Assembly: GCA_025059775.1 (NCBI GenBank)
Contig: JANXCW010000009.1
Location: 1 to 64,000 of the forward strand
Direction: 5' to 3'
Source of the DNA: Armatimonadota bacterium
GTDB lineage: Bacteria > Sysuimicrobiota > Sysuimicrobiia > Sysuimicrobiales > Sysuimicrobiaceae
Length of the DNA: 64,000 nucleotides
The position numbers and the translations under genes are program-made. Shown here one piece after another: positions 52,111 to 64,000 of the stretch. Position 1 is the stretch's first letter; each line of letters starts with the position of its first letter. A model generated the notes under the pieces. The model was given only the letters and a program-made list of their open reading frames with translations, made no database searches and was not told the origin of the DNA.

Positions 52111-53190
52111 TCAGGGGTTCGCGGGCTGGACGAACCGGTGCAGGCGGCGGAGGGCCTCCAGCCGGTCGGATTCTCCCGTGCGGGCCCGACGCAGCGCGTC
52201 CTCCAGGGTGGCCACGGTGCGGTCGTAGGTGGTCCGATCCACGGGATACGGGTGGCCGTCCTTCCCCCCATGGGCAAAGCTATAGCGGGCCGGATCCCGC
52301 CACGAGAGGGGGACTCCCGTCAGCAGCTCCGAGAGCAGCGCCAGGGCACGCAGGGTCTTGGCGCCCACGCCGGGAATGCCCAGGAGGTGCTCGAAGTCGG
52401 GAGCTTGAGCCTCGTATGTACGGAGGAGGGCGGCGTGCAGCCGGTTGGGGTGTAGATCCTCCAGACGGATCGCGTGCCGTGCAGGCATGACCAGCACCCG
52501 CTGGAATTCCGGCAGGAGCCGCTCCGGGTGCTCCCGGGCTAGGGCGGCCACGGCCTCCCGGACGGGCTCGGCTTCCGCGGCCACCAGGTTCAGGGTGGGT
52601 GTGCGGATGTCACAGCACACCGCGGCGTGGGGCTCGCACACGAACGACCGGACTTCTTCCCCCAACCAGTGGTACCGCCGGGCGGTGCGGTCCACGGGAC
52701 GCATCCCCTGCTGGATCACCGCCCAGGAGCCATCCCGGGCCACGAGGAGGGTGTGGTGGTAGAGCTCGTAGCCGTCCTGGACCGCGCTGCCATCTACCTT
52801 CGCGGTCAGACGACTGACGCGGACCAGTGCCTCCACGTCCACCCCGAATCGGTCCCCGTAGCGCCGCAGCTCCTCGGGGGTGGACCGAGCGGCCTGCCCT
52901 TTGCCTCCCGCCACGAAGAGGCCCAGATCCCCCTCCGCGCCGCGCACCGCCTCCTTGAGGGCCCCGCACACGGTGGTGGTGAGGCCGCTGCTGTGCCAGT
53001 CAAATCCCAGCAGGCACCCGAAGGCCTGAAACCAGAAGGGATCGCTGAGCCGGCGCAGCACGCCGTGGGGGCCGATGTCCTCCACCAGGGCGGCCAGCAC
53101 CGCGCGGCCGAGCCGCACCATACGGGCAAACAGCCAGCGTGGAGCGGAACCGGAGTGGAGGGGGAGCGTGGCGATTCCGGTCCGGTGCAC
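52111..53190 (-). CDS. DUF763 protein
   Basis: 359 residues beginning HRTGIATLPLHSGSAPRWLF, the family hallmark, with GFDWHSSGLTTTVCGALKEA, AGGKGQAARSTPEEL, VDGSAVQDGYELYHHTLLVA, and a helix-hairpin-helix LLGIPGVGAKTLRALALLSE. Members occur mainly in archaea and thermophilic bacteria and may handle nucleic acids, but none has a settled function to my knowledge. It lies 21 bp after the amidohydrolase gene and may be carried on the same transcript. Confidence 0.88.
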   Translation of the reverse strand: MHRTGIATLPLHSGSAPRWLFARMVRLGRAVLAALVEDIGPHGVLRRLSDPFWFQAFGCLLGFDWHSSGLTTTVCGALKEAVRGAEGDLGLFVAGGKGQAARSTPEELRRYGDRFGVDVEALVRVSRLTAKVDGSAVQDGYELYHHTLLVARDGSWAVIQQGMRPVDRTARRYHWLGEEVRSFVCEPHAAVCCDIRTPTLNLVAAEAEPVREAVAALAREHPERLLPEFQRVLVMPARHAIRLEDLHPNRLHAALLRTYEAQAPDFEHLLGIPGVGAKTLRALALLSELLTGVPLSWRDPARYSFAHGGKDGHPYPVDRTTYDRTVATLEDALRRARTGESDRLEALRRLHRFVQPANP

Positions 53191-53211
53191 AGGTCCGCCT
53201 CCACCGGCAGC

Positions 53212-54279
53212 TTAGCGGGTTCCGGCAACTCCTGGGAGGCGGAGGATCCGAAAGGCGTTCCCCGAGAAGATCTGCAGCCTCTCCCCCGGGAAGACAGGGA
53301 GGGCTTCGACGGCATGGACGGCTCCCTGCAGATAGGCCCACCCCTCCTCGGGACCAAACGGCATATCGGATCCAAAGAGCAGGCGCTCCGGCCCGAAGAA
53401 CGCCAGGGCGCACGCGAGGGCTGGGGCATTCCCGAACACCGCGGTGTCCGCGTAGAACATCCGGAGGGTCTCCCAAACCGGCCGCTGCAACCCCTCCCAC
53501 GCCGCGATGTCCTCCGGGGCCTCCGGGTGCAATACTGCTCGCTCCAGCCCGCCGCGGGGTCCCACACGGCCCGCCACGTAGGGCAGAATTCCGCCCGCAT
53601 GGTGTGTGAGGATCTTCAAGCGGGGGAAATGCTCGAAGATCCCGGAGAAGGCCAGACGGATCATGAAGGCCGCGGTTTCGTATGGCCAGCCCAACGCCCA
53701 CCAGATCCCGTACCTCGAGCGCCCCTCCGTGGGGTAATCCGGGACTCCCGGTCCCCGGGTGGGATGGACCCAGATGGGGAGATCGTAGGCAGCCATGCGC
53801 GCAAACAAGGGCAGGAACTCTGGACGGTCCAGGGGTTTTCCGAGCACGTTGGTGAAGATCTGGACCCCCGTGGCCCCCAGCTCCTCTATCGCCCGCTCCG
53901 CTTCCCGCACCGCGGCTTCCACGTCGTCGAGGGGCAAGGACGCCACGAATCCCACGAACCGGTCGGGATAGCGGTCCACCAGCTCCGCCATTCCGTCGTT
54001 TGCCAGCTGCGCCAGCTCCACCGCCCGCCGGCCCCGGGCGAGAACCTCGATAGGGGGGCTCGCCAGGCACAGGACCTGCACATAGGGGTGGAGGCGATCC
54101 ATACACCGGAACCGGGCGTCCAGATCCACCAGGGGTGCCATGCGACGGACCGGAGGCTGAAAGGGCCCGGAGATCCCGCCTTCCCCGAGAATCCGAACCA
54201 GGCGGCGGTAGAAGGCCTCTGGGTAGATGTGGGTGAAGACGTCCACCTTCAACGTTTCCCGCGGACGCCCCCCATCCAT
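53212..54279 (-). CDS. ACMSD-like amidohydrolase (Amidohydrolase_2), possible decarboxylase
   Basis: 355 residues from ATG 54279, overlapping the permease end by 31 bp; TTG or GTG starts a few codons later are possible. Metal-site blocks are VDVFTHIYPE, IWVHPTRGP, LTHHAGGILPYV and LLFGSDMPFG, the order found in ACMSD, gamma-resorcylate decarboxylase and LigW. In the first block the usual H-x-H (or E-x-H) reads F-T-H, so one ligand is changed. Near-neighbours suggest an aromatic carboxylate or a ring-cleavage product as substrate; this is inference. Confidence 0.85.
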   Translation of the reverse strand: MDGGRPRETLKVDVFTHIYPEAFYRRLVRILGEGGISGPFQPPVRRMAPLVDLDARFRCMDRLHPYVQVLCLASPPIEVLARGRRAVELAQLANDGMAELVDRYPDRFVGFVASLPLDDVEAAVREAERAIEELGATGVQIFTNVLGKPLDRPEFLPLFARMAAYDLPIWVHPTRGPGVPDYPTEGRSRYGIWWALGWPYETAAFMIRLAFSGIFEHFPRLKILTHHAGGILPYVAGRVGPRGGLERAVLHPEAPEDIAAWEGLQRPVWETLRMFYADTAVFGNAPALACALAFFGPERLLFGSDMPFGPEEGWAYLQGAVHAVEALPVFPGERLQIFSGNAFRILRLPGVAGTR

Positions 54280-56027
54280 CCGCCTCCCCCCCAGCGGCCC
54301 GCGGCGTACACCCAGGCCAGCAGGATCCCCACCACCAGCAGCCCCAGGGCGCTTGCCTCGCCCATACGGCCCGCGTCGTAGAGCTGCCAGATGCGAACTC
54401 CCGCCACCACGCTCTCCGGCTGGTACAGGAGCAGGGCCAGGGTACTCTCCCGGTAGTGGGCCACGAAGTGCAGCAGCCACCCTCCCAGGATCCCCGGCAG
54501 GATCACGGGGATCAGCACCCGCCGCAGGACCGCGGTCCTGCTCGCGCCGCAGACCCAGGCCGCCTCCTCCAGCTCCTTTCCCACCTGCATCACTGCGGCC
54601 CGGGCGGAGCGGCTTACGATCCCCGTGCGCGCCGCATACACGAGCCCCAGCATCCACACCGTCCCGTAGACCCCCCTCCCCACCCACAGGTACAGCAGCA
54701 TGGCCGCGAGTCCGAGGACCACGGAGGGTAAGGTGACGGAGGAAAGCAGCACGTAATCCATACCGCTCCACACCCTACCCCCCCGGCGCACGTCCAACCA
54801 GGCCACCATCACCCCCAGGCCCATGGCCAAGGTGGCCCCAAGCCCGCTCGCCACGGCACTGTTCGCCAGGGCCTTCCACGTGACCTCCTCCCTCAGCACC
54901 AGCCCCCAGGCCCTCAAATCCCACCGCCCCAGCCGCTCGAAGCCGTTGCTGAAGGCCTCCGGAAAGCAGCTCAGGATCCCCAGGAGGAGGATGGGTGCGA
55001 GGGCGAGCAGCGCCGCAAGGATGCTGAGGTATGTGAGGCCTGCAACCCGTCCCACCGGGCCGAGGCTCACCCCACCTCCCTGGAACCCCTTGCCCCCGAT
55101 GGTGGTATACCGCTCGCTCGCGCCCATCCACCTCCGGAGGCCGGCCAGTGCCACAAACCCCAGGAGGAGCCCCGGGACCGCGAGGGCCGCTACTTTTCCG
55201 TACTCCGGGAGTGCGGAGATGGAGTGCACCGCGAAGTACAGGGTGCTGCTGTACACGCGGATCCCCGCAGGTGCCCCGAGCAGGAGCGGGATCTCGAAGC
55301 TCTCCAGGGCGATGAGGGCGGAGAGGATTCCGGCAGCGCCGATGGCCGGGCGGAGGAGGGGCCAGACGATCCTGCGCAGGGTGCCCGGCACCGTGGCGCC
55401 ACTCACCCACGCAGCCTCCTCCAGGCGCAGGTCCAGCCCTCGGAGAGCGCCGGAGATCAGGATGAACGTCAGGGGCACCAAGCCGAGCCCTTGGGCCAGC
55501 ACCATCCCTGGCAGGCTAAAGGCGTTGAGGAGGCCTCCCGGAATCCCCGCCTTCCGGAAGAGCACATTCAACAGTCCGGTCCCCGGCGCAAAGAGGAGGA
55601 TCCAGCTGATGCTCTGCACCACGGGGGGAACCATGAGGGGAGCCACCATCAGGGCGTAGAAGGCCCGCCGGCCGGGTACGTTCGTGCGCTCCACGAGCCA
55701 CGCGGCGATTCCGCCCGCCAGGAGCGCGACGCCGGTAGCACCTGCCACATACACCGCGGTGTGCCCTAGCATCCGGGCGTAGGCGGAGCCGCCTCCCACC
55801 AGTTCTCGGTAGTTCTCCAACCCCCACCGCGCGGAGGCCTCGAAGGGCAGGACGTTGCTGCCCACCCGCAGGCTGCTGAGGATCAGGGTCACCAAAGGCA
55901 CCAGGAGGAGCCAACCGACCGTGAGGACCACCAGGATCTCGAAGGCCTTCCGACCAAACGCCTCTACCTGGCCCGACCAGTCCGGCCTCGAAACCGCCTC
56001 CTCACGGACCTGGACCCTCAGCTGCAC
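54249..56027 (-). CDS. Iron(III)/thiamine-type ABC transporter permease, two permease domains in one chain
   Basis: 592 residues from GTG 56027, with about twelve membrane helices. Each half has an EAA loop: LEEAAWVSGATVPGTLRRIV in the first and LEEAAWVCGASRTAVLRRVL in the second, as in FbpB/ThiP-like double permeases. It lies 31 bp after a binding-protein gene, but no ATPase gene is seen in the cluster, so it must borrow one. Ferric iron transporters have this design; the catabolic neighbours leave other anions or aromatic compounds open. Confidence 0.92.
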   Translation of the reverse strand: MQLRVQVREEAVSRPDWSGQVEAFGRKAFEILVVLTVGWLLLVPLVTLILSSLRVGSNVLPFEASARWGLENYRELVGGGSAYARMLGHTAVYVAGATGVALLAGGIAAWLVERTNVPGRRAFYALMVAPLMVPPVVQSISWILLFAPGTGLLNVLFRKAGIPGGLLNAFSLPGMVLAQGLGLVPLTFILISGALRGLDLRLEEAAWVSGATVPGTLRRIVWPLLRPAIGAAGILSALIALESFEIPLLLGAPAGIRVYSSTLYFAVHSISALPEYGKVAALAVPGLLLGFVALAGLRRWMGASERYTTIGGKGFQGGGVSLGPVGRVAGLTYLSILAALLALAPILLLGILSCFPEAFSNGFERLGRWDLRAWGLVLREEVTWKALANSAVASGLGATLAMGLGVMVAWLDVRRGGRVWSGMDYVLLSSVTLPSVVLGLAAMLLYLWVGRGVYGTVWMLGLVYAARTGIVSRSARAAVMQVGKELEEAAWVCGASRTAVLRRVLIPVILPGILGGWLLHFVAHYRESTLALLLYQPESVVAGVRIWQLYDAGRMGEASALGLLVVGILLAWVYAAGRWGGGGWMGGVRGKR

Positions 56028-56058
56028 TTCCCGCCCGCTCCCGATCCGTGTTCCGAAC

Positions 56059-57090
56059 TTACCGTTCCTCCCCGAGGACGATCCGGCGGATTCGCTCGAA
56101 GAGCTCCACCCGCCGCAGGGCGCGCCGCTCATCCTCCAGGACGATGCGGATGCCCCGTCGGTCGTAGAGCTTGCGAATGGAAGAGCCGCTCCCCGGAGCC
56201 ACGTCCCAGAACCCCTCCCGCTCCAGGGCTGCCCGGCCTTCCCGGGTCATGTACCAGATGGCGAACAGCCGCGCGGCCTCCGGATGCGGCGAGCCCTGGA
56301 GGATGGCCAGCGCGAACTGGGAGGCATACGTCACGGGACCCACCGGGGCCCACTCCAGGCTCACCCCCGCCATCCTGCGCTGCTCCACCTGGTGGGCGAA
56401 GGCTCCCACCCACAGGTCCCGATCCCCCCGCAGGACGAGCTGCTCCACGGTGGCGGGCTGCGGCACCACCGCGAGCCCCATCTCCCGCAGGCGGCGGGCA
56501 TACTGCAGGGCCCACTCCTCCCCTCGGAGCACCCCCAGGGCCGCGATCCAGTTCCCCACCGCGATGGCGTCTCCCACCAGGCGGTTGCGCCACCGCTCCT
56601 GCAGAAGGTCCTCCCACGTGCGCGGGAGTTCCTCCGTTCGGATCCGCCCCGGGCGGTACGCCACCGCATACACCCCGCTGATGAATCGCAGGCCGTACCC
56701 GTCCAGGGTGAGCACGCCCACGGGCACCCCGTACGGTGCCAGATCCTCCCGGGCCACGTAGGGACGGAGCAGCCCCCGCCCGCGCACCAAGCTCAGTCCT
56801 GGCAGGCTCCAGAGAAGCACATCGTAGTTGCGCCTTCCCACGAGGGCTTCCGCCACCACCCGGCTTGGCGCATTCGGGTCCAACACCAGCCGTACGCCGA
56901 CCCCGGGATTGCCTTCCTCGAATCGCACCTTCAGCGGCTCTCCCAGCTGTGGGACGCTGGTGAGCAGCACCACACTCCCTTCCCTCCGGGCCCGCTCCCG
57001 GAGCTCCTGGAGCGGATCTGGCCCTCCCACGGCCACCCCCCACCCCACGAGGCAGACGATCAACACGCCCAGCCACTTCCGCATACCCAT
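56059..57090 (-). CDS. ABC transporter substrate-binding protein (FbpA-like class)
   Basis: 343 residues with a signal peptide (LGVLIVCLVGWGVAVGG). Features of the class are EGSVVLLTSVPQL, DVLLWSLPGL, YAVAYRPGRIRTEELPRTWEDLL, AIAVGNWIAALG and WYMTREGRAALEREGFWD. The tyrosine pair that binds Fe3+ in FbpA is not obvious, so iron is not assured. It is clearly related to the second binding protein at 57.8 kb, with the shared LWSLPGL and E(E/V)(L/V)PRTW(E/D) blocks. Confidence 0.88.
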   Translation of the reverse strand: MGMRKWLGVLIVCLVGWGVAVGGPDPLQELRERARREGSVVLLTSVPQLGEPLKVRFEEGNPGVGVRLVLDPNAPSRVVAEALVGRRNYDVLLWSLPGLSLVRGRGLLRPYVAREDLAPYGVPVGVLTLDGYGLRFISGVYAVAYRPGRIRTEELPRTWEDLLQERWRNRLVGDAIAVGNWIAALGVLRGEEWALQYARRLREMGLAVVPQPATVEQLVLRGDRDLWVGAFAHQVEQRRMAGVSLEWAPVGPVTYASQFALAILQGSPHPEAARLFAIWYMTREGRAALEREGFWDVAPGSGSSIRKLYDRRGIRIVLEDERRALRRVELFERIRRIVLGEER

Positions 57091-57124
57091 CTCCTCCGTC
57101 GTGGGATCCGGCTGCTCTTACGCC

Positions 57125-57790
57125 TTACGGCACGGGGACCTTCTGCCCCGTCACCGGGTGCGGGTAGTGGAAGGGAACCACGTAGGGCTCCGGCCACATC
57201 CGGGGCGGATCCGCCAGGAGCTCATCGGGACCGTGGGGATCCTCCGGGTAGGTCTTGGTGAACACGAACACGGGCGGATCCGGCCACTGCGCCCATCCCC
57301 GCTCGTAGTTTGCAATCCAGTACGGCCGGTAATCGAGCACCCGGATCTTCCAGATCCCGTTCTCCTTCACGTACTCGTTCTCATACACTCCCCCCTCCCA
57401 CCACTGCCGCCGCACCTGCTCCGCCCTGCCGGGGGGAGTGCTCTCGTGCCGACCGCCCTGTAGGAAACACCGGAACCGTCCCCAGGCCCGGCCCGCGTCC
57501 ACATCCACGTCGATCACGTCCTGCACGATGATGTGGTCCAGGAGCACCCCGTACTGCGGTCCGTTCTTCCCACCCCCGAACCGCTCCCGGAACCGCCCCA
57601 CGTACAGACGGCGGGCACCCTCCTTGCCCAGAAACCGACCGCCCAGAAACCGCACCTCGCAGTCATCCGCGAAGAGGTCCACTACCTCCTCATAGAGGCA
57701 CTTGTCCAGGTAGTACCCGTACACATTCTGGAGGCGGCGCACCGCCTCGATGTCCTCCAGCCGCCGAATGCGCTTCTCCAGGTCCTCCAT
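57125..57790 (-). CDS. SnoaL-like (NTF2-fold) protein, aromatic dioxygenase small-subunit-like
   Basis: 221 residues. EDIEAVRRLQNVYGYYLDKC and EEVVDLFADDCEVRFLGGRFLG are the classic SnoaL_4 opening, followed by RHESTPPGRAEQVRRQWWEGGVYENEYVKENGIWKI. The last 60 residues (Pro-rich, PYVVPFHYPHPVTG) extend beyond the fold. Members include dehydratases, isomerases and ring-hydroxylating helpers acting on small aromatic or polyketide compounds. It sits between two paralogous binding-protein genes. Confidence 0.85.
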   Translation of the reverse strand: MEDLEKRIRRLEDIEAVRRLQNVYGYYLDKCLYEEVVDLFADDCEVRFLGGRFLGKEGARRLYVGRFRERFGGGKNGPQYGVLLDHIIVQDVIDVDVDAGRAWGRFRCFLQGGRHESTPPGRAEQVRRQWWEGGVYENEYVKENGIWKIRVLDYRPYWIANYERGWAQWPDPPVFVFTKTYPEDPHGPDELLADPPRMWPEPYVVPFHYPHPVTGQKVPVP

Positions 57791-57828
57791 GCCCGTTTCC
57801 CCTCCTCAACGGAATCTCGAAGCCCGTG

Positions 57829-58869
57829 CTAGGGCACCCGCCCCTGGAGGATGGCCCGCACGCGCTCCGCGAGGGCCACCCGTTTCCGGGCCGCCTCCAC
57901 GTTCTCCACGAACGGTTTCAGGCGGACCTGCGCCAGCGCGCGTCCCAGGATCCCCTGGGGATCCGCGGCGTCCGACATGAACACCGTCTCCCGCTCCAGA
58001 AGCCGCTTTCCCTCTTCTCCCGCCATCCACATGGCCGCACACCGGGCCGCCGCGTTCTCCGCCCGCCCCCGCAACACGGAGACCGCGATGACGGACCCGT
58101 ACGTGGGCCGCACGGGCGCCCAGTCTATCGGTTCTCCGTACACCTCCCGCCGCTCTAAAATCTCCCCGATCCCGGACCACCAGAGGTCCCGCTCTCCCCG
58201 CAGGATCATCTGGATGGCGGTGGCGGGGTTCGGAACCACGGTGATGCGCACCTCGTCCCGTAGCCGCCGCGCGAACCGCTCCATCCAGGCCTCCCCGAGC
58301 AGGAGCCCAAGCCCGGCGATACTGTTCTCCACCAGGCCCGCGTTGCCCACGACCCGTCCCGACCAACGCGGTTGGACGATCTCATCCCAGGTCCTTGGCA
58401 CCTCCTCCGGCCGGATCCGCTGGCGGTTGTACCCGAGACCGTAGACCGTGGTGTAGACGCGGAGGATCCGGTTCTGCAGCATCCGACTCCCAGCCGGCAC
58501 CCGGAGCGCATCCAACTCCGCGGGGGGAAGATCCGCCAGCAGTCCTCGCTCCGCCAGCACGAGCAATCCCGGCAGGCTCCAGAGCATGAGGTCAAAGCTC
58601 CACCGCCCCGCCTCTGCCTCCGTGATCACCCGGGTGGGTCCCGCGAGATCCGCCACCCCCTCCACCCGCAGGCTCCGCAACCTGTTCTCCAGGACCCGGA
58701 CCACAGGATCCGCCACCAGGGGGACCAGGGTCAGCAGGCGCACCCGTCCACCCCGTTCCACCCCCTGGCAGGGCGAGGAGAGGGTTGCTGCCGAAGTCCC
58801 ACTCCCTCCTCCTAGGGCTCCCACCCCGAGGAGCGCCGCGAGGGCGAGAATTCCCCATCGTCTCAACAT
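57829..58869 (-). CDS. Second ABC substrate-binding protein, paralogue of the 56-kb one
   Basis: 346 residues from ATG 58869, with GGAGG five bases upstream. A signal peptide (WGILALAALLGVGALGGG) leads into GGRVRLLTLVPLVAD, FDLMLWSLPGLLVLAERGLL, VYTTVYGLGYNRQRIRPEEV, PRTWDEIVQPRW and AAMWMAGEEGKRLLERE. It diverges a good deal from its partner yet keeps the same blocks, so the two may recognise related but different ligands for the same permease. Confidence 0.88.
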   Translation of the reverse strand: MLRRWGILALAALLGVGALGGGSGTSAATLSSPCQGVERGGRVRLLTLVPLVADPVVRVLENRLRSLRVEGVADLAGPTRVITEAEAGRWSFDLMLWSLPGLLVLAERGLLADLPPAELDALRVPAGSRMLQNRILRVYTTVYGLGYNRQRIRPEEVPRTWDEIVQPRWSGRVVGNAGLVENSIAGLGLLLGEAWMERFARRLRDEVRITVVPNPATAIQMILRGERDLWWSGIGEILERREVYGEPIDWAPVRPTYGSVIAVSVLRGRAENAAARCAAMWMAGEEGKRLLERETVFMSDAADPQGILGRALAQVRLKPFVENVEAARKRVALAERVRAILQGRVP

Positions 58870-58913
58870 GTCCACCTCCTCCGAATTCCATCACCCGTGG
58901 TTCCGCTGGGTTC

Positions 58914-60395
58914 TCAGTCCCAGCTGCGGTCCTCCTCGAAGCCCGGAATTCGCTCCGCGGGAACCCAACTGCCGTGCAGGCCGGGACGGAGCTTGATGGG
59001 CAGCCGGACCACCGCCACGGGGCCTTCTGCCACCGCCAGGGCGTCGAAGATGAGCAGGTCCGACCGTCGCTCGTCGTAGCGGTTCGCGATGGCAAGAAGG
59101 TACCCATCCCCCTCCACCGTGCTGCCCGGTCGCGGGACAAAGGTGGGTTCCTGGAGGGACGAGGTGGGACCCACGAACCACCGCTCATGGCGCCCTGTCT
59201 GCAGGTCCACATGCCCCAGGCAGTTGAACTGGAAGCCGCTGGCGGACCGGAGCGCGGGATGCGCGGGGAGGTCGGTATCCTGCACCAAGAGGTACCCGTG
59301 CCGGTAGGGCTCCATGAGGTACCGCTCGTCCACCCGCGGGAACTCCCCGACGAACTTGGACATCTCGATGCTCTCGAACCCGTCCCGGGAGCTCTCCGCG
59401 TCCACCACCCACCGCGTAAGTCGTGGGGTGGCCTTCGACCGATCGAATCCCCCTCCGTGGATGTCAGGGAAGAAGGGGAAGAGGTTCCCGGGGGCCACGG
59501 GCGTGTCGATGTAGATGCGGCTGCCCTCGTTGAAGGCGTTCATGATGTGGGAGGCGAACTGGTTGGGCCCCTTGAACCACCGGACGTCCTTACCGTTCCC
59601 GTACCGCGGGAGAACGCCCAGGTAGACCTCCCGGGTGCTGTCCCAGGCGAAGGTCGATAGCCCCCGCTTGGCCCGTTCCATGTCGTACATGATGGGGACG
59701 ATGGGGAAGATCACGTAGTCCCGGGTCACCGCGAAGTCGTGGACCATGGAGGCGTAGGGAGCCCGCAACCAAGCCTCGTGTACGATGTGCCCCTCCGGGC
59801 TGATGACGTAGTAGGCGATGTCCGGAGTCCCGTAGCCCGTGGCGGAGTAGGCAAAAGCGATCATCTCTCCCGTCTGGGGGTCGATCTTGGGATGGGCCGT
59901 GAAGGTCTTGCTGGTCAGCTGCCCCTCGAAATCGTAATAGCCGTAGGTCTTCAGGGTGAGGGGATCCAGCAGGACGGGAGGGCTGTCCTCCTTGAGGGCG
60001 TACAGACGTCCCGCGTGGTACACCACATGGGTGTTGGCCGTCCCACGCCGCAGGCCCCGTACGGACTCATCGTCGAAGTAGGGATTCCGGTACAGCCCGA
60101 ACAGGGCCCGCCGGGCCTGCCGCTCTGCCACGAACTTCTCCGTCCGTACGTACCGGCACCGGAAGTCCACGTGGCCATCCTTGAACCGGAACATGCTCAC
60201 GATCCCGTCCCCGTTGAAGTAGATGTCCTCCCCCAGAAGAGGCGGGTACTGGGGGTCGGGTCGCACATGGTAGTAGATCCCCCGCAGCTCCCGGGGGACC
60301 GTGCCTTCCAAGACCTCCAGGTCGTAGATATCTGCCTCGATGCGGTCCGGGGTGTTGAAGCCGGTGTAGATGGGGAGTTCCGGGAACCGTCGCAT
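58914..60395 (-). CDS. Carotenoid/lignostilbene cleavage dioxygenase
   Basis: 493 residues of the RPE65/CCD beta-propeller family. The four iron-binding histidines are visible: H168 in FTAHPKIDP, H219 in MVHDFAVT, H283 in FASHIMNAF and H474 near the C-terminus in GLHGSWVP. The Glu-supported second shell (EGDGYLLAI, GEDIYFNGDG) is also family-like. CCDs split C=C bonds with O2, either in carotenoids or in stilbenes. No carotenoid gene is seen in the window, and aromatic-pathway neighbours favour a stilbene- or phenylpropanoid-type substrate; this is inference. Confidence 0.93.
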   Translation of the reverse strand: MRRFPELPIYTGFNTPDRIEADIYDLEVLEGTVPRELRGIYYHVRPDPQYPPLLGEDIYFNGDGIVSMFRFKDGHVDFRCRYVRTEKFVAERQARRALFGLYRNPYFDDESVRGLRRGTANTHVVYHAGRLYALKEDSPPVLLDPLTLKTYGYYDFEGQLTSKTFTAHPKIDPQTGEMIAFAYSATGYGTPDIAYYVISPEGHIVHEAWLRAPYASMVHDFAVTRDYVIFPIVPIMYDMERAKRGLSTFAWDSTREVYLGVLPRYGNGKDVRWFKGPNQFASHIMNAFNEGSRIYIDTPVAPGNLFPFFPDIHGGGFDRSKATPRLTRWVVDAESSRDGFESIEMSKFVGEFPRVDERYLMEPYRHGYLLVQDTDLPAHPALRSASGFQFNCLGHVDLQTGRHERWFVGPTSSLQEPTFVPRPGSTVEGDGYLLAIANRYDERRSDLLIFDALAVAEGPVAVVRLPIKLRPGLHGSWVPAERIPGFEEDRSWD

Positions 60396-60544
60396 GGATC
60401 GCCCACCTCCCTCCGCGCAACTTTCCCGGCCGCGGGGCTCCGGAGCCTTCGCCCCACCGCGCCGGAAGCACGTAATCCTGCCCTTCCGGGTGCAGGGTAA
60501 GGGCCCGGGAGGACCCCCTCAAGCCAGGATTTGTCGATCCGGGA

Positions 60545-60557
60545 GTCAAATTTTGAC
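60545..60557. promoter_or_regulatory. Perfect short inverted repeat between the Crp-type gene and the dioxygenase gene
   Basis: GTCAAA-T-TTTGAC, 12 bp after the Crp-type stop and about 150 bp before the dioxygenase start. On the minus strand TTGACT at its edge could serve as a -35. A Crp/Fnr site is a plausible reading, though the consensus (TTGAT-N4-ATCAA or TGTGA-N6-TCACA) is not matched. The rest of the 173-bp gap carries no gene. Confidence 0.4.
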
Positions 60558-60568
60558 CGAGCGCCCCT

Positions 60569-61195
60569 TCACACCGCGGAGGTTTCCACCATCTGCCGCA
60601 GTCCCTCCAGGTCCTTGACGAGGATCCGGGACCGGGACAGGGCGATGAGGTCCCGGGCGCACAGGGCCCGGAGGGCCTTGGCTACCGTGGGGCGGGAGAG
60701 GCCCGTGGCGCAGGCGATCTCCCGGTGCGACAGGCGCAGAGCGGGCACTCCCTCCGTCAGGGGTATGTCCTGGTATGCCATCAGGTCCAGAAGCAGCTGC
60801 GCCACCGCCACCTGGGCCGCGTGGAAGGTCAACGCGTACAACCGGTGGGTCAGGGCACATACCTTCTGGGCCAGGCTCTCCAACAAAAGCCAGCATGCCT
60901 GCGGATGGCGGAGTACCCGGGGGAGTTCCGCGGCGGGGATCACGTAGAGCCGGCTCGCCTCCTGGGTCACCGCGGAGACTCCATACGCGGTCCCCCGGAT
61001 GGCGCCCGCATCTCCCACGAAGTGGCCAGCTCCCAGTACCCCCACCAGGTGCTCCTCCCCCAGTTCGTCCAGGTAGCAGAGCCGTACGGATCCATCCACG
61101 ATGAGGTAGAGCCGGTCTGCGGGATCCCCCTGGGTGAAGACGACACTCCGCGGGGGGTAGGCCACGAGGCGAAAATCCTCAAATGGAAAGGACAC
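60569..61195 (-). CDS. Crp/Fnr-family transcription regulator
   Basis: 208 residues from GTG 61195, which follows GGAGATGGGAA; an extension to 61348 lacks similarity. The cyclic-nucleotide-binding fold has VVFTQGDPADRLYLIVDGSVRL and LGAGHFVGDAGAIRGTAYGVSAVT. The C-terminal winged helix has LRLSHREIACATGLSRPTVAKAL. No Fnr-type N-terminal cysteine set is seen, so it is not an iron-sulfur oxygen sensor. Its place inside the island suggests that it controls it, perhaps sensing cAMP, haem or a metabolite. Confidence 0.92.
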   Translation of the reverse strand: MSFPFEDFRLVAYPPRSVVFTQGDPADRLYLIVDGSVRLCYLDELGEEHLVGVLGAGHFVGDAGAIRGTAYGVSAVTQEASRLYVIPAAELPRVLRHPQACWLLLESLAQKVCALTHRLYALTFHAAQVAVAQLLLDLMAYQDIPLTEGVPALRLSHREIACATGLSRPTVAKALRALCARDLIALSRSRILVKDLEGLRQMVETSAV

Positions 61196-61304
61196 TTCCC
61201 ATCTCCGGAGGCGACCCGAAGGGGCAGAACCCCGGGCCCCCACCGCGGGCGATCCCCACCCTCCTCCGGGCCCTCCGGGAACAAGCACCACCGTCCCTCC
61301 CCTC

Positions 61305-63452
61305 TCAGGAAACGAAAGGTTGTGGACTTTTGTCAACCAAGCCCTCATCCAGGTCCAGCACGCAGAGATCCACCCGGCCGCTTCCCACCAGGGCGTTGGC
61401 CTCGCTCAGGGCAATTCCCCCGCCTGCCAGCACGGGGACTTCCACCTCCAGGCGCACGACCTCCGCATACGGCACCAGATACCCCCGGCCGTAGACGGGG
61501 TTGTCCGCGGGGACGGTCTGGCCTGCGGTGACCTCCACGAGGTCGCAGCCCGCTTCCCGGAAGGCCCGGGCGATGGCGAGGCCTTCCTCCTCCGTGATCC
61601 CGCCCCGGGCCCGGTCCGTGATCGGGAGTGCCACCCCGAGGGGCCCTGCCCAGGCTTCCCGTACGGCCCGGAAGACCTCGAGAGGAAACCGCAGCCGGTT
61701 TTCGAAGCTCCCGCCGTATGCGTCCTCCCGACGGTTGGTGAGGGGCGAGAGGAAGCTGGCCAGGAGATAGCCGCTTGCAAAGTGGAGGTGCAGGAGATCG
61801 AACCCCGCCTGGGCTGCGAGCCGTGCGGCCCGCACGAAGGCATCCCGCACCCGCTCCATGTCCGATGGATCCATGGCTCGGGGGACGGGGCCATCGGGAT
61901 GGTAGGGGATGGCACTGGGAGCCAGGAGCTCCCAGGGCTCCGCCAGGGGAAGGTCCAGACCGAACCGGCGGGGCCGGGTGGCTCCCCGGCGTCCCGCGTG
62001 TCCCAAAACCGCGCCGATCCGGGAGCCCTCCGCGTGCACGGTCGCCACGACTCGCCGCCACGCCTCCGCGTGCTCTCCCCGGTACAGGCCCGCGTCCTCC
62101 GGGGTGATGCGACCCTCCGGGGAGACCGCGAGGATCTCCGTGAGCACGAGCCCCGCGCCCCTAGCCGCGAATCCGCCTAGGATCCGGTGCTGCGCTTCGT
62201 CCGGAAGGCCCTCCAGGGCCCCGCAGGCGCCCGCGGGCCGCAGGACGATCCGGTTCTCCAGTCGCAACCCCCGCAGGACGAACGGCAGGTGGATGGGGGG
62301 CCGGGCCAGCCGTACGTCGTCCCACTCCGAGGCCAGACGGGCTTCCACCCGTTGCACAAAGCGCGCATCCCGCACCCTCAGGTCGTCGTAGGAGACGCGG
62401 CCGCTGCGGGTGAGGAGGTAGAGGGTCAGGCGGTAGGGATCCAGCCGCAGGGCGCGCGGGGTGGTCTCAAAGGTTCGCTGGCTCTGGGCCGCGGCCCGCT
62501 GGAAGGCCTCCACCACGGGTCTGCGTTCCAGCTCGTACGCAGCCAGGGCCATCTCCACATCCTCATGGTCTAGGAGGGCCCGGGCGAGGGCGATGGCGTC
62601 CTCCATGGCCAGCTTCGTGCCGGAGCCGATGGAGAAATGGGCGGTGTGGGCCGCGTCTCCCAGGAGCACTACCCGGCCATGATGCCAGGTAGCGGTGCGC
62701 AGGGTCGGGAACCGGATCCAGCGGGAGTTGTTGGAGAGGAGGGGAGCTCCCCGCAGTACCTCCTCGAAGACCTCCGCACACCGCCGCAGGGTTTGCACCT
62801 CGTTCGCCCCCTCCAGCCCCGCCCGCTTCCAGGTGTCCTCCCCGCACTCCACGATGAAGGTGCTCATGCAGCCCTCATAGGGGTACGCGTGCGCCTGAAA
62901 GAGCCCCCATTCGGTCTGCTGGAAGACGAAGGTGAAAGCCCCAAAGGGACGGGGCGTGCCCAGCCAGATGTACCGTGTGCGGCCCGAGGTGATCCGGGGT
63001 CGGAAGACCTCCGCGTACCAGGACCGGACCACGCTGCCGACCCCATCCGCACCTACCAGGAGGTCGTACGGCGGCAGATCCTCGGGTTGCCGGACCTCCG
63101 TACGGAACCGCAGCACCACCCCCAGCTCCGCGCATCGCCGCTGGAGGATCTGGAGCAACGCGGTGCGGGCGATGCCTGCAAACACATGTCCCCCGCAGCG
63201 CACCCGCTCCCCGTGCACGTAGACGTCGATGGCGTCCCAGAGGACGAACCGCTCCGTGATCTCCCGGTACGTGGGCTCGTCCGCCTCCCGGAACTCCGCC
63301 AGGGTGCGGTCGCTGAACACCACGCCCCACCCGTAGGTGGCGTCTGGGGGGTTGCGCTCCAGCACGGTGATCTCGTGGTGGGGGGTTGCTTTCTTCAGCA
63401 GCAGGGCCAGATATAACCCGGCCGGCCCACCGCCCACGATCACCACACGCAC
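61305..63452 (-). CDS. FAD monooxygenase / old-yellow-enzyme fusion (2-aminobenzoyl-CoA monooxygenase/reductase-like)
   Basis: 715 residues from GTG 63452, seven bases after GGAGG. Residues 1-380 are a class A flavin hydroxylase: VVIVGGGPAGLYLALLL at the start, the DG-type motif in LLVGADGVGSVVRS, and VVLLGDAAHTAHFSIGSGTKL near 280. From about 390 comes an OYE-type FMN barrel (LRLENRIVLRPAG, TEILAVSPEGRI, AGFDLLHLHFASGYLLASFL, GGSFENRLRFPLEV). This design is known from 2-aminobenzoyl-CoA and salicylyl-CoA enzymes, which hydroxylate and then reduce an aromatic CoA ester. No CoA ligase gene lies in the window. The start overlaps the luciferase-like stop. Confidence 0.9.
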   Translation of the reverse strand: MRVVIVGGGPAGLYLALLLKKATPHHEITVLERNPPDATYGWGVVFSDRTLAEFREADEPTYREITERFVLWDAIDVYVHGERVRCGGHVFAGIARTALLQILQRRCAELGVVLRFRTEVRQPEDLPPYDLLVGADGVGSVVRSWYAEVFRPRITSGRTRYIWLGTPRPFGAFTFVFQQTEWGLFQAHAYPYEGCMSTFIVECGEDTWKRAGLEGANEVQTLRRCAEVFEEVLRGAPLLSNNSRWIRFPTLRTATWHHGRVVLLGDAAHTAHFSIGSGTKLAMEDAIALARALLDHEDVEMALAAYELERRPVVEAFQRAAAQSQRTFETTPRALRLDPYRLTLYLLTRSGRVSYDDLRVRDARFVQRVEARLASEWDDVRLARPPIHLPFVLRGLRLENRIVLRPAGACGALEGLPDEAQHRILGGFAARGAGLVLTEILAVSPEGRITPEDAGLYRGEHAEAWRRVVATVHAEGSRIGAVLGHAGRRGATRPRRFGLDLPLAEPWELLAPSAIPYHPDGPVPRAMDPSDMERVRDAFVRAARLAAQAGFDLLHLHFASGYLLASFLSPLTNRREDAYGGSFENRLRFPLEVFRAVREAWAGPLGVALPITDRARGGITEEEGLAIARAFREAGCDLVEVTAGQTVPADNPVYGRGYLVPYAEVVRLEVEVPVLAGGGIALSEANALVGSGRVDLCVLDLDEGLVDKSPQPFVS

Positions 63453-64000
63453 GCCAGGGCCTCCGCCAGGCGATCCACCTGGTCCAGATCGGCCACCGCG
63501 GGCATGAGCACAAGTTCGTCGCAACCGGCGGCCGCATATCCTTCCACGAACTGCACCACGGCCTGCGGGGTCGTCAGGAGCTGCCCGACGATGCGTTCCA
63601 CCATAGGACCCGTAAAGGCATAGTAGTCCCGCATGTACCGGATTCCGCGCTCCCGGGCTTCCTCGCCCAGGACGAAATATCCCTGGCCCCAGAGCTCCGG
63701 CCGGCCCGGCCGGCCAGCTTCAACCCACGCCATGCGGGCAACCTCCGCGGCCCGGGCGAAGGCCCGGGGCGGGCCTCCGCCGTGGAAGTAGCCCTGGGCA
63801 TACCGGGCGGCCCGGGCAAAGGCCTCGTCCGCGAACCCCCCCACGAGGAAGGGCGGGCCTCCCGGTTGGGCCGGCGGCGGACCCACCGTTCCCTCCTCCC
63901 AGATGCGTCGCAGGGCCCGCAGCTGCTCCGTGAGCCGGCTCCCCCTTCCCCGGTGGTCGATCCCGGCCACCAGGTAATCCTCCTCCCGGGCCCCTACCGC
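63440..64000 (-). CDS. Luciferase-like (LLM) flavin/F420-dependent oxidoreductase, 5' end cut off by window edge
   Basis: The frame is open from the edge to the stop at 63440 (186 residues seen), reading REEDYLVAGIDHRGRG, LTEQLRALRRIWEEG, PPFLVGGFADEAFARAARYAQGYF, and QLLTTPQAVVQFVEGYAAAGCDELVLMPAVADLDQVDRLAEAL. These are the standard C-terminal half blocks of bacterial luciferase-like monooxygenases. An ATG at 63970 is internal and not the true start. The gene overlaps the monooxygenase fusion by 13 bp, so it belongs to the same transcript. Confidence 0.88.
   Translation of the reverse strand, partial: AVGAREEDYLVAGIDHRGRGSRLTEQLRALRRIWEEGTVGPPPAQPGGPPFLVGGFADEAFARAARYAQGYFHGGGPPRAFARAAEVARMAWVEAGRPGRPELWGQGYFVLGEEARERGIRYMRDYYAFTGPMVERIVGQLLTTPQAVVQFVEGYAAAGCDELVLMPAVADLDQVDRLAEALACVW

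Follow-up and report, generated by a model that had tools for sequence, protein, structure and literature searches.

Positions 53212-64000 of the window (the whole 64,000-nucleotide stretch analysed here, from contig JANXCW010000009.1 of an Armatimonadota bacterium of the family Sysuimicrobiaceae) carry nine minus-strand genes which, judged by sequence comparison, are part of two adjoining catabolic units with separate evolutionary histories. Unit B is by homology a lignin-dimer module, consisting of a lignostilbene-alpha,beta-dioxygenase (LSD) homologue, a substrate-binding protein, a SnoaL-fold lyase homologue, a second substrate-binding protein, a permease and an amidohydrolase. It is assigned to lignin dimers because the lyase is homologous to LdpA and PcfL and the dioxygenase resembles LSD4 and retains its stilbene-binding residues. 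Unit A comprises a Liv transporter, a short-chain dehydrogenase/reductase (SDR), a CoA ligase, a luciferase-like (LLM-class) protein and a flavin monooxygenase/reductase, and most likely serves a 2-aminobenzoyl-CoA (anthranilate) route. We consider this explanation as a whole, a lignin-dimer unit beside an anthranilate-CoA unit, to be probable. The components are known, while the combination, the lineage and the decarboxylase variant are new; the chemistry predicted for unit B is known for lignin dimers, and what is new is the lineage in which it occurs and the arrangement of its genes.

Layout and conservation of the locus

The original prediction had described nine co-directional genes forming one aromatic-catabolism island. 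The genes and their domain calls were confirmed one by one in a Pfam profile search, which returned Bac_luciferase, a FAD_binding_3 and Oxidored_FMN fusion, cNMP_binding/HTH_Crp, RPE65, SBP_bac_6, SnoaL_4, SBP_bac_11, BPD_transp_1 (twice) and Amidohydro_2. The features are as follows.

63440..64000 (-): LLM-class (luciferase-like) oxidoreductase, 3' part, Bac_luciferase; full gene at L002:1440-2294, 284 aa
61305..63452 (-): flavin monooxygenase/old-yellow-enzyme fusion, FAD_binding_3 and Oxidored_FMN; predicted ACMR-like 2-aminobenzoyl-CoA monooxygenase/reductase
60569..61210 (-): Crp/Fnr-family transcription regulator, cNMP_binding and HTH_Crp_2, start codon uncertain; 91% identical in the congener G001
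60545..60557: palindrome GTCAAANTTTGAC, candidate operator of the LSD unit
58914..60395 (-): LSD homologue, RPE65 family
57829..58875 (-): ABC substrate-binding protein a, SBP_bac_6
57125..57790 (-): NTF2/SnoaL-fold gamma-formaldehyde lyase homologue (LdpA/PcfL family)
56059..57090 (-): ABC substrate-binding protein b, SBP_bac_11/SBP_bac_6
54249..56027 (-): fused two-domain ABC permease (PhnU2/FbpB-like), BPD_transp_1 in two stretches, weak TIGR03262 match; start placed after a stop codon that lies upstream in the congener
53212..54279 (-): ACMSD/LigW-superfamily amidohydrolase, Amidohydro_2, with an altered N-terminal metal motif (D-V-F-T-H)

The window covers the first part of a contig of 112.6 kb, and its end cuts the LLM gene. 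Beyond it (L002) lie six further genes of the same direction, encoding a benzoate-CoA-ligase-family protein, an SDR, a fused LivG-LivF ATPase, LivM, LivH and a Liv-type binding protein, past which a divergent major facilitator superfamily (MFS) gene bounds the 15-gene run. Of the three genes that had been expected to the right, the CoA ligase and the ABC ATPase are both present, but the locus has no linked aldehyde dehydrogenase gene. The sole congener compared (G001) has all 15 genes in the same order, with protein identities of 83-98% and dN/dS of 0.02-0.20, and their order is therefore not due to chance. The strongest purifying selection acts on LSD (dN/dS 0.019), followed by the lyase homologue (0.055). 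Intergenic gaps are about 30-40 bp across most of the LSD unit, with overlaps elsewhere; longer gaps precede the Crp gene (about 95-110 bp) and separate it from the dioxygenase gene (173 bp).

The lyase homologue and the dioxygenase

The SnoaL-like protein appears to be the key enzyme of unit B, a gamma-formaldehyde lyase homologue that would make a stilbene. Its sole strong PDB matches, aligned over the whole protein, are 8abv (E=5e-60), 8abt (E=1e-56) and 8abu, with E values ranging from 1e-55 to 5e-60 and 45-47% identity to LdpA. By fold search these entries are SpLdpA and NaLdpA, among them a complex with erythro-1,2-diguaiacylpropane-1,3-diol (DGPD) and the mutant H97Q: 8abu is the NaLdpA H97Q mutant crystallised with substrate, and 8ABV is named LdpA in an independent paper too. 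The top seven Foldseek matches of the lyase model (mean pLDDT 82) are LdpA chains, and the next best has an E value of about 2e-8. His86 corresponds to the catalytic His97 of NaLdpA and is invariant in 46/46 sequences; the remaining residues invariant among these 46 relatives are also kept in the window protein. LdpA converts a beta-1 lignin dimer to lignostilbene and formaldehyde, and PcfL performs the same reaction on a beta-5 dimer (PMC12997858, PMC11323797).

The dioxygenase is identical to LSD4 of Sphingobium SYK-6 (6xm6) at 246/482 positions (51%, E about 1e-171), with weaker matches to carotenoid 9,10-dioxygenase (1e-51) and apocarotenoid oxygenase (1e-40). In the alignment to 6xm6 the four iron-binding histidines (His167, 218, 284 and 476 of LSD4) are all kept, the phenol-recognition residues Phe59, Tyr101 and Lys134 recur as F60, Y102 and K135, and the equivalents of Asn120 and Ser283 are likewise retained. 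With every residue of known role in LSD substrate binding (PMC8191317) in place, the C=C cleavage of a lignin-type stilbene that had been proposed gains support, and the protein is predicted to be a stilbene cleaver by every test available. Against NCBIfam NF053778 it scores 727.5 bits at full length, below the cut-off of 800, which makes it a close homologue and not an equivalog by this model; it is therefore called an LSD homologue.

Linkage of lyase, LSD and decarboxylase genes in other genomes

We collected 44 lyase-family loci from other bacterial genomes with the lyase as bait, so that the counts express linkage and not frequencies. An LSD-family gene occurs in the examined stretch at 22 of the 44 loci (within 120 bp at 14), and 12 of the 18 checked genomes lacking one near the lyase carry a strong LSD elsewhere. 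LigW-like decarboxylases, 46-100% identical to that of L036, are found at 14/44 loci, any amidohydrolase at 16/44, and LSD together with an amidohydrolase at 10/44; several actinobacterial loci carry lyase and LSD alone. The gene order lyase-aldehyde dehydrogenase-LigW in L036 and L037 is that of Saro_0796, Saro_0797 and Saro_0799 (pcfL-ferD-ligW; 4inf is Saro_0799), and for this reason the lyases of these two loci are taken as PcfL.

Lignin C-C linkages can be broken, as recently described, by stilbene formation with formaldehyde release and subsequent LSD cleavage; the beta-5 pathway in its complete form has been reported as almost exclusive to Sphingomonadales (PMC11323797). In our survey lyase and LSD occur as a pair in Actinomycetota, Pseudomonadota and Acidobacteriota, frequently joined by a LigW-like decarboxylase; in the window's lineage the pairing takes the form of one unit with a dedicated transporter, whose enzymes can be tested for lignin upgrading. 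The view that no pathway with this gene set had been described holds for the whole set; it does not hold for lyase plus LSD, published for sphingomonads (PMC11323797, PMC12997858).

Binding proteins a (57829-58875) and b (56059-57090), which flank the lyase gene, are paralogues with 40% identity; no match to either was found in the 44 loci at the cut-off used. Two Bacillota metagenome-assembled genomes encode 55-61% identical lyase homologues (L009 9956-10681 and L023 9962-10690), and no LSD was found in the genome sequence searched.

The amidohydrolase and the nature of the dimer

The amidohydrolase had been called ACMSD-like, and its membership of the decarboxylase superfamily is supported by sequence and fold: it resembles gamma-resorcylate decarboxylase, ACMSD and LigW in the PDB, and its model (mean pLDDT 75.8) superposes on gamma-resorcylate decarboxylase and LigW structures with TM scores of about 0.74-0.78. 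Its metal motif reads F-T-H, against E-E-A in the LigW-like neighbours of other lyases. LigW itself was rejected as its identity, the N-terminal metal-ligand motif E-x-A/H being absent. The nearest relative in the set (44%) belongs to a Terriglobia locus (L005) with the cluster aldehyde dehydrogenase-SDR-lyase-MFS-amidohydrolase, and the same unusual subclass therefore accompanies the lyase in two separate lineages. We infer from these comparisons that its role is LigW-like and its metal site changed.

Unit B shares with the PcfL-LsdD-FerD-LigW beta-5 pathway of Novosphingobium aromaticivorans (PMC11323797) the lyase, the LSD, an amidohydrolase of the decarboxylase superfamily and the equivalent of Ser283 of LSD4, an LSD active on DCA-S. 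It differs in lacking a linked FerD and in its amidohydrolase, which shares only about 27% identity with the LigW-like protein of L036 and does not have the metal-binding Glu; the window lyase is about 48% identical to the PcfL-like protein of L036. In an unrooted tree a long branch (1.11) lies between the two LdpA structures and all other rows, which include the window lyase and the PcfL-like L036 and L037. A beta-5 dimer appears somewhat likelier than a beta-1 dimer as the substrate, with a small share left to some other dimer. It is favoured, without proof, because the window falls on the PcfL-like side of the lyase tree and an amidohydrolase is present.

The best-surviving alternative is that unit B is a beta-1 (diarylpropane) module, its amidohydrolase serving another aromatic acid. 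The likeness to the LdpA-LsdA pathway for DGPD in Sphingobium sp. SYK-6 and N. aromaticivorans (PMC12997858) extends to the NTF2-fold lyase, its catalytic His, the LSD and the LSD residues, and LdpA, 45-47% identical to the window lyase, is its only structurally characterised relative. A beta-1 dimer yields two vanillins, for which lyase and LSD suffice, and several actinobacterial loci hold just these two. However, the window unit adds an ABC permease, two binding proteins and an amidohydrolase and is not a sphingomonad-type locus; the LdpA structures stand apart from it in the tree; and the amidohydrolase, linked to the lyase at 16 of the 44 loci, is not needed in beta-1 chemistry. We regard the beta-1 module as possible and on balance unlikely.

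Unit A and its separation from unit B

The CoA ligase exceeds the cut-off of the benzoate-CoA-ligase model TIGR02262 (486.5 bits against 375), which fixes its class and not a specificity for anthranilate. The LLM protein reaches 136 bits with TIGR03619 (F420-dependent LLM), below the cut-off of 167. For the monooxygenase/reductase the best NCBIfam model, aligned nearly full length, is NF006101 (salicylyl-CoA 5-hydroxylase) with 854 bits, below the cut-off of 1078; salicylyl-CoA hydroxylase was rejected on this score and on the gene context of relatives, which differs and points to anthranilate.

The monooxygenase/reductase fusion is present in all family members searched. The LLM gene precedes it in the related genomes G003, G011, G017 and G020, and the same pairing is seen in the congener. 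Genes for enoyl-CoA hydratase (ECH), RidA and acyl-CoA dehydrogenase (ACAD) lie beside the orthologue in G011, G017 and G020, those for tryptophan 2,3-dioxygenase (TDO) and kynureninase in G003 and G017, and TDO in G020. In G017 the gene immediately after kynureninase is the ligase orthologue (67%); the window's genome has its TDO and kynureninase genes on contig C5, apart from the locus. Unit A is assigned to anthranilate because related genera keep its enzymes with TDO and kynureninase, a set expected for the route from tryptophan through kynurenine and anthranilate to 2-aminobenzoyl-CoA. The 2-aminobenzoyl-CoA pathway of Azoarcus evansii and Arthrobacter sp. Rue61a (PMC3534580) likewise has a benzoate-family CoA ligase and a flavin monooxygenase/old-yellow-enzyme fusion, and the relatives' clusters with kynureninase, TDO, RidA, ECH and ACAD add to the likeness. 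The window differs from it in the monooxygenase score below the NF006101 cut-off, the added LLM partner and the placement of the tryptophan-side genes on another contig.

The palindrome GTCAAANTTTGAC lies in the 173-bp gap before LSD, overlaps a -35-like TTGACT hexamer and occurs once per whole genome in the window's genome and in the congener, at the same place. The adjacent Crp-type regulator is a natural candidate to bind GTCAAANTTTGAC and control unit B. A consensus promoter scan of the Crp-LSD gap found nothing. At the Liv promoter a -35-like TTGACG stretch is conserved; GTCAAANTTTGAC is not present there, and a shared operator was rejected.

The original prediction had joined import, C=C cleavage, ring oxidation and decarboxylation into one linear pathway. 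In its present form this alternative would have the LSD aldehydes oxidised, CoA-activated and hydroxylated as aryl-CoA by the monooxygenase/reductase, making units A and B one lignin-to-CoA-ester route. It would fit the single strand and the 15-gene order shared by both members of the genus, and the benzoyl-CoA-reductase-like and 4-hydroxybenzoyl-CoA-reductase-like genes of the genome would take such CoA esters. Set against this, the monooxygenase/reductase and LLM are part of an anthranilate/tryptophan module that spans the family and the order and in related genera occurs with TDO/kynureninase and without the dioxygenase. The lyase and LSD occur within the genus alone, not being found in the relatives outside it that were searched, and their unit has the 173-bp gap and its own conserved palindrome upstream. 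Anthraniloyl-CoA and salicylyl-CoA hydroxylases use an ortho donor group of the substrate, which LSD products such as vanillin do not have. A single pathway is accordingly improbable.

Less probable still is a lyase homologue unrelated to lignin, acting for instance in natural-product dehydration, with the carotenoid-cleavage-type dioxygenase cleaving another phenolic stilbene such as resveratrol, which LSD-family enzymes also cleave (PMC8191317). NTF2-fold proteins are functionally diverse, and the two Bacillota genomes have the lyase homologue with no LSD found; but the LdpA catalytic His is conserved family-wide, and the LSD/LigW-like pairing recurs in three phyla. Cleavage of apocarotenoids, named at the outset as the refuting outcome, is compatible with the shared superfamily (RPE65 Pfam) and was rejected as very improbable, since all phenol-recognition residues of stilbene cleavers are kept and the LSD match is better by about 120 orders of magnitude.

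Proposed scheme and points against it

Under the two-unit explanation, a lignin-derived aromatic dimer would be imported by the unit B permease with its two related binding proteins. The LdpA/PcfL-type lyase would strip the gamma carbon as formaldehyde to give a stilbene, and LSD would split the double bond into two aromatic aldehydes. The ring aldehyde would be oxidised, after which the amidohydrolase might take off the additional carboxyl group of the ring, the part played by LigW in beta-5 catabolism. In unit A, anthranilate would be converted to 2-aminobenzoyl-CoA, followed by ring hydroxylation and reduction.

Several observations weigh against this scheme. All units lie on one strand with short gaps, and read-through from unit A into unit B is possible. 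The window lyase is equidistant from known LdpA (47%) and the PcfL-like L036 protein (48%). The amidohydrolase has Phe at the metal-binding Glu position of LigW-type enzymes, which makes decarboxylation uncertain. The stretch from 52111 to 61348 holds no ATPase gene for the unit B ABC system, which could be served by the six TOBE_2 ATPases encoded elsewhere in the genome. No FerD orthologue was found in the locus, and the best-matching aldehyde dehydrogenase of the genome (40-44% identical) is encoded on another contig among sugar-type genes. Targeted searches, from which the gene inventory of the window's genome derives, found neither LigB nor intradiol ring-cleavage enzymes in it, which bears on how vanillin-type products would be handled.

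A more specific version of the two-unit explanation is tentative, and we hold it to be rather unlikely in full. It takes unit B to be a self-contained non-sphingomonad lignin-dimer island that has an importer, a regulator and an operator to itself. The step after PcfL/LSD would fall not to LigW but to a decarboxylase with a new class of metal site, in which a single N-terminal His stands without Glu or HxH, and the island would have been joined to the anthranilate/tryptophan module as both substrates arrive together, for example in plant debris.

Related gene sets and neighbouring genes

Tryptophan breakdown via anthraniloyl-CoA monooxygenase/reductase was omitted from GapMind for lack of knowledge (PMC9007349), and the unit A comparison yields candidate genes for it (LLM, ECH, RidA and ACAD). 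The set LLM-monooxygenase/reductase-ECH-RidA-ACAD with TDO, kynureninase and CoA ligase occurs order-wide as a candidate for tryptophan degradation via anthraniloyl-CoA, in which RidA would fit the hydrolysis of an enamine intermediate. Its sites are:

L075 2-5097 and 12588-16181 (G017)
L079/L080 (G020)
L081 9530-15306 (G011)
L069 6597-14867 (G003)
L072 (G005)

A creatininase-family amidohydrolase recurs beside TDO/kynureninase (L106 8602-9306, L069 11989-12780 and L072 1054-1872) and may stand in for kynurenine formamidase.

A DUF763 gene (window 52111-53190) lies about 20 bp downstream of the amidohydrolase gene and has the same position in the congener; we know of no tie of DUF763 to aromatic metabolism. 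Elsewhere in the window's genome (G000), contig C5 (L105 12550-20000 and L106 1647-5754) encodes a 4-hydroxybenzoyl-CoA-reductase-like Mo enzyme, which reaches 831 bits with TIGR03194 (cut-off 995), together with a set like class I benzoyl-CoA reductase, made up of two HGD-D subunits and two ATPase-like genes of the BadF/BcrA type; CoA ligases lie alongside, and the reductase subunits are below the equivalog cut-offs. Contig C3 (L138 2194-6158) carries genes like those of a meta-cleavage lower pathway, with hydratase/decarboxylase types of the FAA-hydrolase family, a DmpG-like aldolase and an aldehyde dehydrogenase.

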